Shown: positions 3,657 through 13,274 of the stretch, piece after piece
Layout: the number at the start of each line of letters is the position of its first letter
Position numbering within the stretch: position 1 is the stretch's first letter
Source of the DNA: a virus
Direction: 5' to 3' (one strand)
Length of the DNA stretch: 30,397 bases
Virus record (IMG/VR): IMGVR_UViG_3300021225_000391
Span: 1 to 30,397 of that record
The notes under the pieces: generated by a model
What the model saw: the letters and a program-made list of their open reading frames with translations, nothing else
Told to the model about the DNA's origin: nothing
Databases searched by the model: none
Program-made: the position numbers and the translations under genes

Positions 3657-3899
3657 ATGCAATTTGTGGCTCTTGTTCTTGCTATCGCCAAGGCCGTCCC
3701 AATTATTGACAGATGGTTGGGGCTTATAGTTTTGGAGTACGTTAAGCATAAACAAGAGCAACTTATTAAACTAAATAAAAAGATCATTGAAGAAGCCCTT
3801 AAACTTAAAGATCAAAGAAATATTGAAGATGAAGAACATAGTGGTGAAGTTTCTGGCTCTGGTGATATTGTTGACAGCCTTCCCAGGATGCGTCACTAG
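3657..3899 (+). CDS. Candidate inner-membrane spanin (Rz-like)
   Basis: 80 residues, starting 2 nt after the preceding stop. An N-terminal hydrophobic stretch (residues 3-28, interrupted by a few charges) is followed by a long charged helix (about 29-60) suited to a periplasmic coiled coil. The out-of-frame lipoprotein gene that starts at 3829 within its 3' end gives the classical Rz/Rz1 nested arrangement. Spanins bridge inner and outer membranes and fuse them in the last lysis step of phages of Gram-negative hosts. The call rests on architecture rather than on sequence similarity. Confidence 0.55.
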   Translation: MQFVALVLAIAKAVPIIDRWLGLIVLEYVKHKQEQLIKLNKKIIEEALKLKDQRNIEDEEHSGEVSGSGDIVDSLPRMRH

Positions 3900-7685: not shown

Positions 7686-7867
7686 AGGTCACCTATGTAA
7701 ACAAGCTCACCAGACTCAAGGTCTTCTTCAAGCTGAAATAGAAACGGAACAACATCCTCTGTCATGATCTCGCCATACTGACCTAATAAATGAATCTCTT
7801 TCTTAGTTTGCCAAAAGACTAAAAGCTCGCCTTTGCGATTAGATAAAATAAATTGACGCTTTTTCAT
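7682..7867 (-). CDS. First gene of the leftward early operon, hypothetical
   Basis: 61 residues. The sequence (KKRQFILSNRKGELLVFWQTKKEIHLLG) suggests a small beta-rich N-terminal part and an acidic C-terminus. The ribosome site AAAGGGG is well placed before ATG 7867. It is the first gene after the leftward extended -10 promoter at 7897-7905, so it would be expressed earliest. No family is recognised. Confidence 0.6.
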   Translation of the reverse strand: MKKRQFILSNRKGELLVFWQTKKEIHLLGQYGEIMTEDVVPFLFQLEEDLESGELVYIGDL

Positions 7868-7896
7868 TTAATACCCCTTTTGTTTGGTAGGTAATC

Positions 7897-7905
7897 ATTA
7901 TAGCA
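7897..7905 (-). promoter_or_regulatory. Extended -10 promoter for leftward early operon
   Basis: On the minus strand the sequence is TGCTATAAT, a perfect TGnTATAAT extended -10. The -35 region is poor, as is usual for extended -10 promoters. The predicted start near 7890 gives a leader of about 23 nt before ATG 7867, containing the AAAGGGG ribosome site. Confidence 0.7.
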
Positions 7906-7957
7906 CAATTTCGATCAAGTAAACTTAAGATTGTAAAAATTACATATTTAACATTTA

Positions 7958-7974
7958 TAGATAGTTGCTATCTA
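7958..7974. promoter_or_regulatory. Perfect dyad, candidate operator
   Basis: TAGATAG-TTG-CTATCTA is a perfect 7-bp inverted repeat with a 3-nt centre, about 55-75 bp upstream of the leftward promoter. Size and symmetry fit a site for a dimeric helix-turn-helix regulator such as the XRE-type protein encoded at 10587. No second copy was noticed by eye. Confidence 0.5.
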
Positions 7975-8000
7975 ATAATTATATAGATCGTTTAATTTAC

Positions 8001-8020
8001 AAATCATTAACAAATGATTT
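8001..8020. promoter_or_regulatory. Perfect dyad, candidate operator
   Basis: AAATCATT-AACA-AATGATTT is a perfect 8-bp inverted repeat with a 4-nt centre, lying between the two divergent promoters, about 40 bp upstream of the rightward -35. Its sequence differs from the dyad at 7958, so two regulators or two roles are possible. Confidence 0.5.
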
Positions 8021-8059
8021 AAATCTTTATTACCGTTCTATGGGATTCTTAATTCACCA

Positions 8060-8088
8060 TTGATTGAGCAGGAAGAGACGGTTATATA
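8060..8088 (+). promoter_or_regulatory. Rightward sigma70-like promoter
   Basis: TTGATT, a 17-nt spacer, then TATATA. It is the only well-formed rightward promoter in the control region. Transcription would start near 8095 and give a leader of about 280 nt containing the long hairpin before the first gene at 8375. Confidence 0.6.
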
Positions 8089-8143
8089 CTGCCATGAAAC
8101 CTTGAATTAAGCTTTATACCGGATACCTCAAAGTGATAACTAA

Positions 8144-8241
8144 CTTAAGGATTGAAGGGAAGAGGCAAGGGATATTATTCTTAGTTTAAAGACTGTGAAG
8201 GAATTATCTCCCTAGTTATTCTTTTCCCTTGTTTCCTAAAG
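8144..8241 (+). ncRNA. 98-nt imperfect hairpin, candidate structured RNA or leader element
   Basis: Three stacked helices can be drawn. Outer: CTTAAGGA (8144-8151) with TCCTAAAG (8234-8241), 7 of 8 paired. Middle: AAGGGAAGAG (8155-8164) with CTTTTCCCTT (8221-8230), 10 pairs including one G-U. Inner: AGGGATATTATTC (8168-8180) with GAATTATCTCCCT (8201-8213), 11 of 13 paired. A symmetric 3x3 loop, an asymmetric 3x7 loop and a 20-nt apical loop complete it. It lies about 50 nt after the predicted start of the 8060 promoter and holds no reading frame. It could be a leader switch, an RNase III site, a small RNA or an origin element. The structure is drawn by hand, without an energy calculation. Confidence 0.6.
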
Positions 8242-8374
8242 TGATGTTTATTAATACATACTTACTAAGAACTTTCTTAATGCTTTTCTGTTATTGGTTG
8301 CACCCAAAGATTCTTATTGACTGGTAAACATTACATAATTTGACTTAACTAAATTTGATTGTAACCATATTAGC

Positions 8375-9343
8375 ATGGATAAGATTTCACTTCATGACAT
8401 GCTAGTAAAACTCAGAGATCTTGCTAAGAAGTTAGATAAGACACCAACCTCTAGAGAGTTTATTGCATCGGGTGTTTCTTGGAGACAGATTAGAAACCAA
8501 GGTGGATATAATAAATTAGTTGAGTTATTGGGCTTAGAGTTTAATCAATCTTCCCATACTTCAGAGCCTCATGAACTTCTTATTAGGCCGCCAAAGATTC
8601 TTATCTTTGACTTAGAAGTAGCTCCTGCCATTGCTTATACATACAATTTTAGAGAAGCCTTCATTAATCCTGAGAACATTATCCAAATGCCCTATATTTT
8701 AGCTTATTCAGCTAAATGGTATGGAGAGGATAGGGTTTATTATGGTGACACCAGAAACACGCCTAAAAACGATTTAAAGCTCTTACAAGAGCTATCTGAC
8801 TTAATAGCTGAAGCTGACTATGCCTGTGGGCACAACCTCAAGAGATTTGACCTTCCAACAACACGGGGCAGAATGATCATTGAGGAGATGATGCCACTTA
8901 AAAAGGTTGAGGTTATTGATACTTTGAAGATAGCTTTCAGACATTTTAAATTCCCTTTTTATAAGCTTGGAGAGTTGGCCAAATACCTTAAGTGTGAACG
9001 TGCCAAACTAGATCATGGAAAATTCCCAGGAACTTCATTATTTACTGAAGCTGATAAGGGCAATCTAGAAGCATTCATTGAAATGGAGGCTTATTGTAAA
9101 ATGGATAGTTTAGTGACTGAAGAGGTTCTTAAAAAGCTCATGCCATGGGAGCCATCAATTAACTTTCAGTCATTTTATCAGAAAAGAATATGCTCATGCG
9201 GTTCAGAACAGTTTAAGAAAGATGGGTTTCAGTATGGCCCTTCAAGTGCTCGCCAACGCTTTGCTTGCGTTAAATGTGGAAAAGGTTTTGTGCATAAAGA
9301 CAACATGCTAGATAAGAATATTAAAAAAGAGCTTATTAAATAA
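8375..9343 (+). CDS. DEDDy-type exonuclease with zinc ribbon
   Basis: 322 residues. Residues 10-55 resemble the short helix-rich repeat seen next to homing nucleases (TPTSREF...GVSWRQIRNQGGYNKL). Residues 74-255 form an RNase H-like exonuclease: FDLEV (D79, E81), GHNLKRFDLP (N154, D159) and YCKMD (Y240, D244), that is, the DEDDy set of polymerase B-type or YprB-like exonucleases. Residues 273-301 carry CSCG and CVKCG, a C4 zinc ribbon. No polymerase domain is present. The ATG has no clear Shine-Dalgarno. As first gene after the control region, it probably acts early in DNA processing. Confidence 0.78.
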   Translation: MDKISLHDMLVKLRDLAKKLDKTPTSREFIASGVSWRQIRNQGGYNKLVELLGLEFNQSSHTSEPHELLIRPPKILIFDLEVAPAIAYTYNFREAFINPENIIQMPYILAYSAKWYGEDRVYYGDTRNTPKNDLKLLQELSDLIAEADYACGHNLKRFDLPTTRGRMIIEEMMPLKKVEVIDTLKIAFRHFKFPFYKLGELAKYLKCERAKLDHGKFPGTSLFTEADKGNLEAFIEMEAYCKMDSLVTEEVLKKLMPWEPSINFQSFYQKRICSCGSEQFKKDGFQYGPSSARQRFACVKCGKGFVHKDNMLDKNIKKELIK

Positions 9344-10586: not shown

Positions 10587-10880
10587 ATGATTATTCATTC
10601 TAATGAAGTCGCTAATTTAATGAGAAACCGTAGACGTGAATTAAAAATGTCTCAAGTAAAACTATCGGGAATGGTAGGATTTTCAGAGCGTGAAGGTCAA
10701 TTCGTAAGTAATGTTGAACGCGGAAAATGTCAATTTCCTGTAAGATATATTTCAAAACTTGCCAATGCTCTTGAAGTATCAGAGCTAACAATTATAGAAT
10801 TAATGGCCAACGACTATAGAAATGCAATTATTAAAGAGGTATTAAATGCATCTGAACTATCTAATCAAACAACTAATTAG
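10587..10880 (+). CDS. XRE-family transcriptional regulator (Cro/CI-like)
   Basis: 97 residues. Residues 6-66 form a typical XRE helix-turn-helix: LMRNRRRELKMSQVKLSGMVG, FVSNVERGK, and YISKLANALEVSELTIIELM. A short C-terminal helix follows, with no protease or dimerisation domain of the CI type. The ribosome site AAAAGG lies before ATG 10587. It may act on the dyads in the control region at 7958 and 8001, an inference. Confidence 0.8.
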   Translation: MIIHSNEVANLMRNRRRELKMSQVKLSGMVGFSEREGQFVSNVERGKCQFPVRYISKLANALEVSELTIIELMANDYRNAIIKEVLNASELSNQTTN

Positions 10881-11073: not shown

Positions 11074-11107
11074 AGAATTAGTTAAATTTCTTGAGGTAAA
11101 CAAATGA
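10979..11107 (+). CDS. Small gene embedded in the previous one
   Basis: 42 residues (MNWQVTQKTLRTGQ...ELVKFLEVNK) in a different frame, overlapping 95 nt of the preceding gene. Support: AGGAGG stands 6 nt before the ATG, one of the best ribosome sites in the window, and its stop overlaps the next start as ATGA at 11104. Against it: short length and heavy overlap. Function unknown. Confidence 0.45.
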   Translation: MNWQVTQKTLRTGQRIFEVTNMQVTLAIFSYEELVKFLEVNK

Positions 11108-11478
11108 ATATCAGAAAATCAATTTCCCACCCGGAACTATTGGTTGGATCAAACGGCTCTATCTATCACGCTTCTACAGGTGAAAGAATTAACTTAATGC
11201 ATGACCACGGAACAACCATGAGAGGTCACATGATCGCTTATAGGCATAACGGAAAGATCAAGCAGTTATCAGTTATTAGACTGGTATTTGAAGCTCATAT
11301 TAAGAAAGCAAAGATACAAACAAATGATTACGTTGAAACAATAGACGGGAATGATTTTAATCCTGATGCGAGTAATTTAACTTACGGATCAAGATACAGA
11401 AAGCCAGAGAAGAAAAAAGTAACCCACAATGGAGAAGAATATTCAACATGGATGGGAATTGATGAAGTTTACTGTTAA
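11104..11478 (+). CDS. Degenerate HNH/NUMOD-like DNA-binding protein
   Basis: 124 residues. The plan follows homing-nuclease-like HNH proteins: NUMOD4-like start (LLVGSNGSIYHAS), GHMIAYRHNGKIKQLSVIRLVFEAH, then DYVETIDGNDFNPDASNLTYGS. In active members the core reads VNHIDG..NN..NLEW; here the catalytic His is replaced by Thr79 and the Asn pattern is weak. It is therefore probably not a nuclease, and may keep only DNA binding. Compare the intact version at 12597. It is coupled by ATGA to the small gene before it. Confidence 0.55.
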   Translation: MNIRKSISHPELLVGSNGSIYHASTGERINLMHDHGTTMRGHMIAYRHNGKIKQLSVIRLVFEAHIKKAKIQTNDYVETIDGNDFNPDASNLTYGSRYRKPEKKKVTHNGEEYSTWMGIDEVYC

Positions 11479-11490
11479 TTATAAATGCCA

Positions 11491-11557
11491 ATTGAGCAGC
11501 GTAAAAGCTTGGTATAACAAAACGTCCGTTGTTTTGTGTGCGTCCTCATTGCTCAAT
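11491..11557. repeat. Nested inverted repeats before HNH gene
   Basis: ATTGAGCA (11491-11498) and TGCTCAAT (11550-11557) are perfect 8-bp complements enclosing a second perfect hairpin, ACAAAAC (11517-11523) with GTTTTGT (11531-11537) around a 7-nt loop. The outer right arm ends 18 nt before the ATG at 11575. It may be an mRNA leader structure. A tRNA was considered and rejected. Confidence 0.5.
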
Positions 11558-11574
11558 ATGGGGAATATTTTACT

Positions 11575-11841
11575 ATGAAAAATTTTAAGTCAGAAAAACC
11601 TTGTATTGTATGCGGAGAATCAAAAGAAAATTACGTAACTCTTCATCACATCTATACAAGAAAAGCTTTTCCTGAGTTTGAAAGTGCGCCATGGAACCTG
11701 ATTCCGGTATGCCAACCATGCCACAATCTTTTTCACTCACTTGGAAATCAAACGATGATGAAGAAGTTTATATCAGTTAGAAATTGGATGGAGCTAAGAG
11801 GTTGGGAAGTATTTAACGGTAAGTTAATTCACAGGGACTAG
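11575..11841 (+). CDS. Small HNH endonuclease
   Basis: 88 residues from ATG 11575, with GGGGA upstream; an ATG at 11536 is in frame but lies within the leader repeat. Zinc-HNH layout: C10-C13, LHH at H24-H25, N41, then C46-x2-C49-H50 and H54. Small HNH proteins lying near terminase genes can support cos-type packaging by nicking; others are plain homing genes. Its 3' end overlaps the opposite-strand gene by 29 nt. Confidence 0.8.
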   Translation: MKNFKSEKPCIVCGESKENYVTLHHIYTRKAFPEFESAPWNLIPVCQPCHNLFHSLGNQTMMKKFISVRNWMELRGWEVFNGKLIHRD

Positions 11842-12403: not shown

Positions 12404-12604
12404 ATGGAAATAAATTCAGATCATTCCGTGATTGGGTCGTGCCAGTGCGTCTTGGAATCAATTAAGACAAGAGTTGATGGATCAATAAGCGTATCAATTT
12501 CAATAGATGCCTCTAATCAAGAAATTCTTTCAAGGCTTTTAACGAATTTTTCATTTAATAAAAGATTAATGCAGGTTGCCTTTGTAGAGGTTAACAATGG
12601 TTAG
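12404..12604 (+). CDS. Small hypothetical protein
   Basis: 66 residues. The sequence (SVIGSCQCVLESIKTRVDGSISVSISI) predicts an alpha/beta fold with no known motif. The ATG lacks a Shine-Dalgarno and lies just after a GGG-paired repeat. It overlaps the next gene by 8 nt. Similar small proteins occur in phages near terminase genes in my recollection, without a function. Confidence 0.5.
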   Translation: MEINSDHSVIGSCQCVLESIKTRVDGSISVSISIDASNQEILSRLLTNFSFNKRLMQVAFVEVNNG

Positions 12605-13274
12605 GATAGTTGGTTATGACTCTTATTACATTAATGAAAATGGGGACGTATTTAGCTCAAAAAAAAATGGTAGTTTACAAAAAATGTCCCTAAATATTAA
12701 AAAAAATGGTTACGCCAATATTAATTTATGGAATGGTAAAAAAAGGAAAACATTTAGAATTCATAGATTAGTTGCCAAGTCTTTTTTAAAAAATGACTCC
12801 AATCTTCAGTTTGTTAATCATAAAGATGGAAATAAACTCAATAATAATGTGTCCAATTTAGAATGGTGCACACCTAGTCAAAATACTATCCATGCTATTT
12901 CTACTGGTTTAAGGGCAAAAAAAACACTTAGAGGATCACTGGATGATTTTCAAATTCTGACAATTAGAACCATGTCAAATATTTCTAATGACGAAATGTC
13001 AAAAATTTACAATGTGAGCAATAGTTTAATAAGCCAAATAAGGTCTAACGCTATTTATAGCGAGCAATGTTTAATTAATGATTATAAACCAAAATATTTC
13101 AAAAGATCATCTCATACCAAGCTAACAAAAGATCAGTTTTTTAATGTTGCAATATCTATAGAAAATATAAATTTAATTGCAAAAAAATACGGTATTAGTA
13201 AGCATAGAGTTTGTGCGATTAGAAAGATTTACAAAGATGGGTATTTGTTTAATTGGGGTAAATCACATGAGTGA
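12597..13274 (+). CDS. HNH homing endonuclease with NUMOD4-like and HTH parts
   Basis: 225 residues. N-terminal NUMOD4-like segment (YYINENGDVFSSKKNG), then FRIHRLVAKSFL and the HNH core VNHKDGNKLNNNVSNLEW (H75, N79, N84), intact here. The C-terminal half has two helix-turn-helix-like repeats (about residues 112-150 and 175-215), used by such enzymes to bind long targets. The gene is visibly A-rich with many A runs, unlike the terminase genes, which fits recent insertion. It overlaps the small terminase start by 8 nt. Confidence 0.87.
   Translation: MVRIVGYDSYYINENGDVFSSKKNGSLQKMSLNIKKNGYANINLWNGKKRKTFRIHRLVAKSFLKNDSNLQFVNHKDGNKLNNNVSNLEWCTPSQNTIHAISTGLRAKKTLRGSLDDFQILTIRTMSNISNDEMSKIYNVSNSLISQIRSNAIYSEQCLINDYKPKYFKRSSHTKLTKDQFFNVAISIENINLIAKKYGISKHRVCAIRKIYKDGYLFNWGKSHE

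Follow-up and report, generated by a model that had tools for sequence, protein, structure and literature searches.

Pseudoknot leaders occur before plasmid replication genes of the IncI/IncL-M type, and HDV-like ribozymes, which cleave at their 5' end, fold into a nested double pseudoknot (P1-P2-P3-P1.1-P4). GOLLD and ROOL are several times longer than the RNA of ~215 nt described here. Both are large structured noncoding RNAs from phages and metagenomes whose function is unclear (PMC12286853). The HK022 put RNA (putL and putR) comprises ~70 nt, with two stem-loops and a short triplex, and lies after both PL and PR (PMC9378689, Nat Commun 2022). This leader RNA alone suppresses pausing and termination, and its binding site on RNA polymerase is the zinc-binding domain of the beta' subunit (PMC9378689).

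The locus compared with these systems lies in a 30,397-base IMG/VR virus record (hereafter, the window), on which all coordinates are given unless a contig is named. A hairpin at 8144–8241 of the + strand makes up the 3' domain of a larger RNA, ~215 nt long, that is structured, conserved and spans ~8030–8245 (+). The initial annotation had correctly recognized a structured RNA in this control region, but the hairpin is only a part of an element that begins near 8030, and the 5' domain (8032–8111), which was absent from that description, is better supported than the hairpin. We hold the structure of the ~215-nt RNA to be nearly certain.

Hairpin stability and genomic setting

Folding with RNAfold revealed that 8144–8241 (+) forms one long stacked hairpin with a minimum free energy of -32.9 kcal/mol and a z-score of -3.87, and none of 200 dinucleotide shuffles gave an equal or better fold, confirming that the reported hairpin is real. 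The minus strand of the same segment reached -20.8 kcal/mol (z-score of -1.5) and did not stand out, and only one of 1,238 98-nt segments of the contig (both strands, step 49) was more stable than the hairpin. Three nested helices of 7/8, 10/10 and 11/13 pairs had been described; our counts were close to these, with an outer helix of 3 + 4 pairs and a middle helix of 10–12, although the inner helix was broken.

The hairpin is located in a control stretch (7868–8374) that separates a leftward unit, encoding small proteins, an Erf-like annealing protein and SSB, from a rightward unit. No ORF of at least 40 aa was present in this stretch, in agreement with its earlier description as gene-free. 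By contrast, the good promoter that had been placed ~50 nt upstream of the hairpin was not recovered on the + strand by a consensus scan; a predicted promoter kept in relatives lies ~120 nt upstream of the hairpin, at 7996–8024, and was itself missed by a strict consensus scan. The features of the region are summarized in Table 1.

Elsewhere in the window, we observed an HTH regulator gene (10587–10880) and many HNH-type endonuclease genes (2499–2990, 11104–11478, 11536–11841 and 12597–13274). HNH-type genes adjoin the control site in contigs L095, L187 and L112, and several lie directly downstream in relatives. The SSB-like ORF of L004 (2725–3195) opens with an extended (GL)n tract encoded by a simple repeat, which may be either a start-choice artefact or a contingency repeat.

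Table 1. Predicted RNA elements, promoter-like sequences and the first downstream gene at the control site of the window
Feature	Position	Strand	Remarks
RNA promoter	7996..8024	+	Predicted; -35 TTTACA 7996–8001, 17-nt spacer, -10-like TTAAAT 8019–8024
Whole structured RNA, type A	8030..8245	+	~215 nt, from a knotted 5' domain through a middle part to the 3' hairpin; ten homologous contigs
Pa 5' strand ACCGUUCU	8032..8039	+	Pairs with 8074–8082; compensatory changes at 3/6 scored pairs
P0 5' strand AUGG	8040..8043	+	Pairs with 8057–8060; both-side changes at 4/4 pairs
P1 5' strand CUUAAUUC	8048..8055	+	Pairs with 8104–8111; both-side changes at 5/8 pairs
P0 3' strand CCAU	8057..8060	+	P0 loop contains P1 5' strand
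Pb 5' strand UGAGCAG	8065..8071	+	A bulged; pairs with 8089–8094
Pa 3' strand AGAGACGGU	8074..8082	+	Sits in Pb loop
Pb 3' strand CUGCCA	8089..8094	+	Partner of 8065–8071
P1 3' strand GAAUUAAG	8104..8111	+	Partner of 8048–8055
X first copy AAAGTGAT	8130..8137	+	18–19 nt after P1 in 9/10 members; 15 in L095
ACUU	8143..8146	+	Could pair with either X copy; equivalent in 7/10 members (inspection), absent in L177, L183, L184
98-nt hairpin (3' domain)	8144..8241	+	Homologous hairpins in relatives
Hairpin, GGCAAG side	8163..8168	+	
Hairpin, apical AGUUUAAAGACU	8183..8194	+	
Hairpin, conserved strand GAAUUAUCUCCC	8201..8212	+	
X second copy AAAGTGAT	8238..8245	+	At hairpin end
Exonuclease-gene promoter-like sequence TTGACT-N17-AACCAT	8340..8368	+	Ends 6 nt before ATG
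DNA polymerase exonuclease subunit gene (phrog_403)	8375..9343	+	First gene downstream of RNA in window

Family members and covariation of the 5' domain

Relatives were collected by using the exonuclease and Erf genes as queries at the protein level, together with DNA patterns taken from the first relatives. The RNA, designated type A, was identified in ten distinct contigs: the window, L008, L095, L177, L183, L184, L195, L009, L187 and L193, with duplicates merged (L099 into L008 and L106 into L009). L009, L187 and L193 formed a diverged subgroup, and L177 and L184 were close to each other, leaving fewer than ten independent lineages. BLASTN searches of phage and plasmid collections with the control region or the RNA returned only weak, short AT-rich matches, and a single scan of genome contigs gave no useful match. 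The tail motif AATACATACTTAYTAAGAA was abandoned after it matched unrelated coding DNA in six contigs, and a weak model match in L113 (E = 0.011) was taken as chance.

Read from the 5' end, the helix strands of the 5' domain run Pa, P0, P1, P0', Pb, Pa', Pb', P1'. P0 is nested within Pa, and Pb within P1; these two nested sets cross one another, forming two interlocked pseudoknots. The register of Pb was set by eye and is least certain in L009, L187 and L193. An extra helix, P2 (CCUC/GAGG), seemed good in three sequences, but its partners occupied non-homologous positions and it was dropped.

In a MAFFT alignment of four members, which was not fitted to the structure and is thus less biased, although its pairs were still read off these sequences, 98.8% of cells were paired compared with 83.9 ± 3.0% in shuffles, and both-side changes were found at 10 of 21 pairs (0/500 shuffles). 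Slid versions of the helices paired only 33–48% of cells in this alignment. A hand alignment of all ten sequences, built to the helices so that its counts lean towards the structure, kept 231 of 240 pair cells, whereas the best of 5,000 strand permutations paired 198, and it showed compensatory changes at 18 of 24 positions. Comparison over related phages had been proposed initially as a check on the hairpin, and the arms were indeed found to vary while remaining paired, the 5' domain giving the clearest examples. Across the ten sequences there were 16 G-U pairs and a single A-C mismatch, a pattern consistent with a molecule that is RNA of the + strand.

A lone imperfect inverted repeat can arise in AT-rich DNA, and the fold could in principle be due to chance or to a DNA-level repeat with no role as RNA. 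The covariation, the asymmetry between G-U pairs and A-C mismatches, and the far better folding of the + strand than of the - strand in the window all oppose this explanation, which is refuted for the 5' domain and which we consider extremely improbable overall.

The 3' domain and the twin element X

P1 is followed by a short middle part, extended in L095, L177 and L184, and then by the 3' domain, which most members fold as a long hairpin. Most of the main group retains the GGCAAG side and a strand AUCUCCC, and the apical AGUUUAAAGACU is common to the window, L008, L095, L177 and L184. The 3' domain is less well supported than the 5' domain, since conservation of one strand is accompanied by variation in the other. 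The 3' stretches of the window, L008 and L009 folded better than shuffles, whereas those cut from L095 and L177 did not.

Flanking the hairpin domain are two copies of an 8-nt element, X, which are its only + strand copies in the window. The word is AAAGTGAT in the window, AAAAGCAT in L008 and L009, AAAAGCAG in L183, AAAAGCAA in L195, and GAAATCAT in L177 and L184. X thus varies between phages, while the two copies within one phage agree at 8/8 positions in seven of the ten contigs, both copies changing in step. A strand of 4–5 nt (ACUU, GCUU or UUCC) that could pair with either copy may constitute a strand-exchange switch, but it is present in only seven of the ten members, and three contigs keep the twin X without it. 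No common complement of X was found inside the RNA across the ten members. A target-site duplication arising from insertion of the hairpin domain was rejected as the origin of the twin, given that the copies remain identical as they change from phage to phage and that no empty site was observed. Also discounted was a short ORF downstream of the second X copy, which the window and L009 have but L008 lacks.

Promoters and position of the RNA in the transcript

The TTTAC-type -35 element lies equally far from the first helix in all ten members, with a more variable -10, and the first helix strand falls within a few bases of the predicted start in every one of them. In the window, transcription is expected to start near 8030. 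We infer that rightward transcription would proceed from the promoter at 7996–8024, which would place the knot at the extreme 5' end of the transcript. Between the divergent promoters, ahead of the RNA promoter, short palindromes were observed (7957–7977, ATAGATAGTTGCTATCTAAT, in the window; GTACTA-type repeats in L007 and L009), and these look like repressor operators.

The promoter-like sequence at the start of the exonuclease gene also precedes the homologous ATG in most relatives having this gene, which suggests a leaderless exonuclease transcript with an unusual -10 box. With such a sequence at its ATG in the window and in most relatives, this gene need not have the RNA as its leader. A further conserved stretch lies between the RNA and this promoter at 8299–8325 (TGCACCCAAAGATTCTTATTGACTG); it also occurs in L008, L009, L100 and L180 and is a possible operator.

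The genes following the type A RNA vary (exonuclease, HNH or an unrelated ORF). In every member the RNA stands at the head of the rightward unit whatever gene comes next, which argues for a mechanism that is independent of the gene. ORFs start soon after the RNA in L177, L184, L187 and L195, at a distance of 10–35 nt in L187 and L195. No stem-loop followed immediately by a U run, as in an intrinsic terminator or attenuator, was found in 7850–8450, although terminator scans are weak evidence in AT-rich phages.

We tentatively put first a cis-acting, gene-independent leader of the rightward early transcript, with an anti-pausing or antitermination role. In its favour, the RNA sits at the predicted +1 and is independent of the following gene, no terminator follows it in the window, and the type C RNA described below resembles a leader. 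The 5' knot would fold as soon as it is clear of RNA polymerase, and the long hairpin would close next, perhaps aided by the X copies exchanging for one complementary strand. In a put-like manner, the folded RNA might then carry polymerase past pauses or terminators, or determine by other means the output of the downstream operon. The covariation and the placement of the RNA at the predicted +1 in all members are consistent with such a leader, as are the ORFs that soon follow it in four contigs, and put, the best-known case of this kind of mechanism, shows that a leader RNA alone suffices; on the other hand, put is only ~70 nt long, with two stem-loops and no such knot, and L112 manages with a short leader and without such an RNA.

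The same arrangement could instead reflect a free-standing small RNA that acts in trans early in infection by binding a host or phage protein or RNA, a possibility we take seriously but doubt. Such an RNA would fit the dedicated promoter, the absence of an ORF, the separate promoter-like sequence of the next gene, the variable downstream genes and the exchange of whole RNA cassettes within little-changed surroundings. It fits poorly with the lack of a terminator after the RNA in the window, with the ORFs that begin 10–35 nt after it in L187 and L195, and with the leader that appears to occupy the same site as type C.

A knot at the 5' end might also act as a stability element, shielding the early transcript from 5'-end-dependent decay. 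Both the start of the first helix at about +1 in 10/10 members and the independence from the following gene agree with this, but a simple 5' stem would suffice for the purpose, and shielding accounts neither for the unpaired bases conserved within the 5' domain nor for the long 3' hairpin and the twin X; we regard it as unlikely.

Exchange of structured cassettes at the control site

Comparison between near-identical phages revealed that they carry unrelated structured cassettes, of type A, B or C, at one site. L007 (type B) and L009 (type A) were 91% identical just upstream of the cassette and 84% identical just downstream. Similarly, L187, with a type A RNA followed by an HNH-type ORF, and L190, with a type C RNA followed by a Lin1244_N gene, showed 93% identity up to the RNA and 92.6% after the cassette.

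Type B RNAs, found in L007 as well as in L100, L102 and L180, comprise ~270 nt with several hairpins. Their spans were located at L103:2780–3050, L100:3545–3811, L102:94–360 and L180:1446–1713; some hairpins have GNRA-type loops, and compensatory changes are present. The type B RNA of L102 had no Rfam match at E up to 1. No helices shared with type A were found, and a relationship between the two was rejected; an 18-mer match to type B in L179, lying within an apparent coding region, was dismissed as chance. Just downstream of type B, tandem hairpins ~1 nt apart were observed (L103:3072–3113, L100 at ~3835–3875 and L102:384–422), the second having a GGUAAAACC-type tip, with stem sequences that differ between phages. 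These tandem hairpins are reminiscent either of put RNA with its two stem-loops or of a terminator.

Type C cassettes form a simple pseudoknot that ends ~24 nt before the start codon of the Lin1244_N gene; both of its helices, P1 and P2, pair completely in L002, L004, L104 and L190 despite differing sequences. Type C sites were located at L096:2583–2675, L098:3351–3440, L104:2478–2563 and, on the - strand, before the Lin1244_N gene of L190, and the second stem is followed by a T-rich stretch in three contigs. By its position, type C reads plainly as a leader. The Lin1244_N gene is itself a candidate DNA-replication gene, and neither the window nor the type A and B loci examined, most of them partial, yielded a relative of it.

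The exchange between L187 and L190 raises the possibility that the type A RNA belongs to a replication origin, where the transcript or its R-loop would start DNA replication in phages without the Lin1244_N gene. These two contigs differ by exactly that cassette, relatives of the gene were not found in the window or the other type A and B loci, and no recognizable initiator, helicase or primase was found in the window. However, the replication role of the Lin1244_N gene is itself inferred, most loci are partial, the type A RNA is unlike known primer RNAs, and X is a single pair of words rather than an iteron array; an origin function is, in our estimate, decidedly unlikely.

Quite improbable is a broader proposal in which an exchangeable RNA-only module replaces a protein-plus-leader module at the control site and X matches each RNA to its phage. 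If true, a knotted RNA would by itself start phage DNA replication or license early transcription, a job that close relatives give to the Lin1244_N gene with its own pseudoknot leader. Apart from this proposal, the exchange of type A for two unrelated structured cassettes in near-identical phages makes RNA elements at such switch regions a modular layer of phage gene control that is invisible to protein-based annotation, and the cassettes provide clear variants with which antitermination or origin function by RNA alone could be tested.

Comparison with known RNA families

A search of the window against Rfam 15 (4,227 models) at the gathering cut-off gave no match to the RNA, as anticipated by the initial annotation, which knew of no named family for the hairpin. 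Ranked by E-value, the window region gave only two chance-level matches (E = 2.2 and 3), while L102, L177 and L193 gave none at E up to 1 and relatives gave no match. No tRNA or tmRNA was detected in the window by ARAGORN. A group I intron was likewise not indicated, there being no Rfam match and no exon reading frame around the RNA, and the conserved downstream gene or pathway that marks a riboswitch was lacking, as downstream genes differ between members. Searches of the open literature yielded put and reviews on large phage RNAs but no description of the type A RNA, an absence that is weak evidence given the coverage searched.

Among described systems, the type A RNA resembles GOLLD and ROOL in being a structured noncoding RNA of phages and metagenomes, but it is far shorter and matches no Rfam model. 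Type A has compact, crossed helices at its 5' end, as do HDV-like ribozymes, but differs from them in helix order, with P0 bracketing the P1 strand and Pa' lying inside Pb, and again in the lack of an Rfam match. The likeness to IncI/IncL-M leaders lies in type C, which places a pseudoknot ~24 nt ahead of the start codon of the candidate replication gene at this site; type A, by contrast, precedes no replication gene, and its knot is different and doubled.

As with put, the type A RNA is noncoding, downstream of an early phage promoter and independent of the following genes, all of which is deduced here from sequence. Unlike put, with its ~70 nt and two stem-loops, it comprises ~215 nt, combines interlocked pseudoknots with a long hairpin and occurs on the rightward side only. 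We favour the view that the type A RNA may work like put and yet is no member of the put family. It appears to represent an uncatalogued family of phage structured RNA, distinguished by an unusual knot and an unusual twin element.
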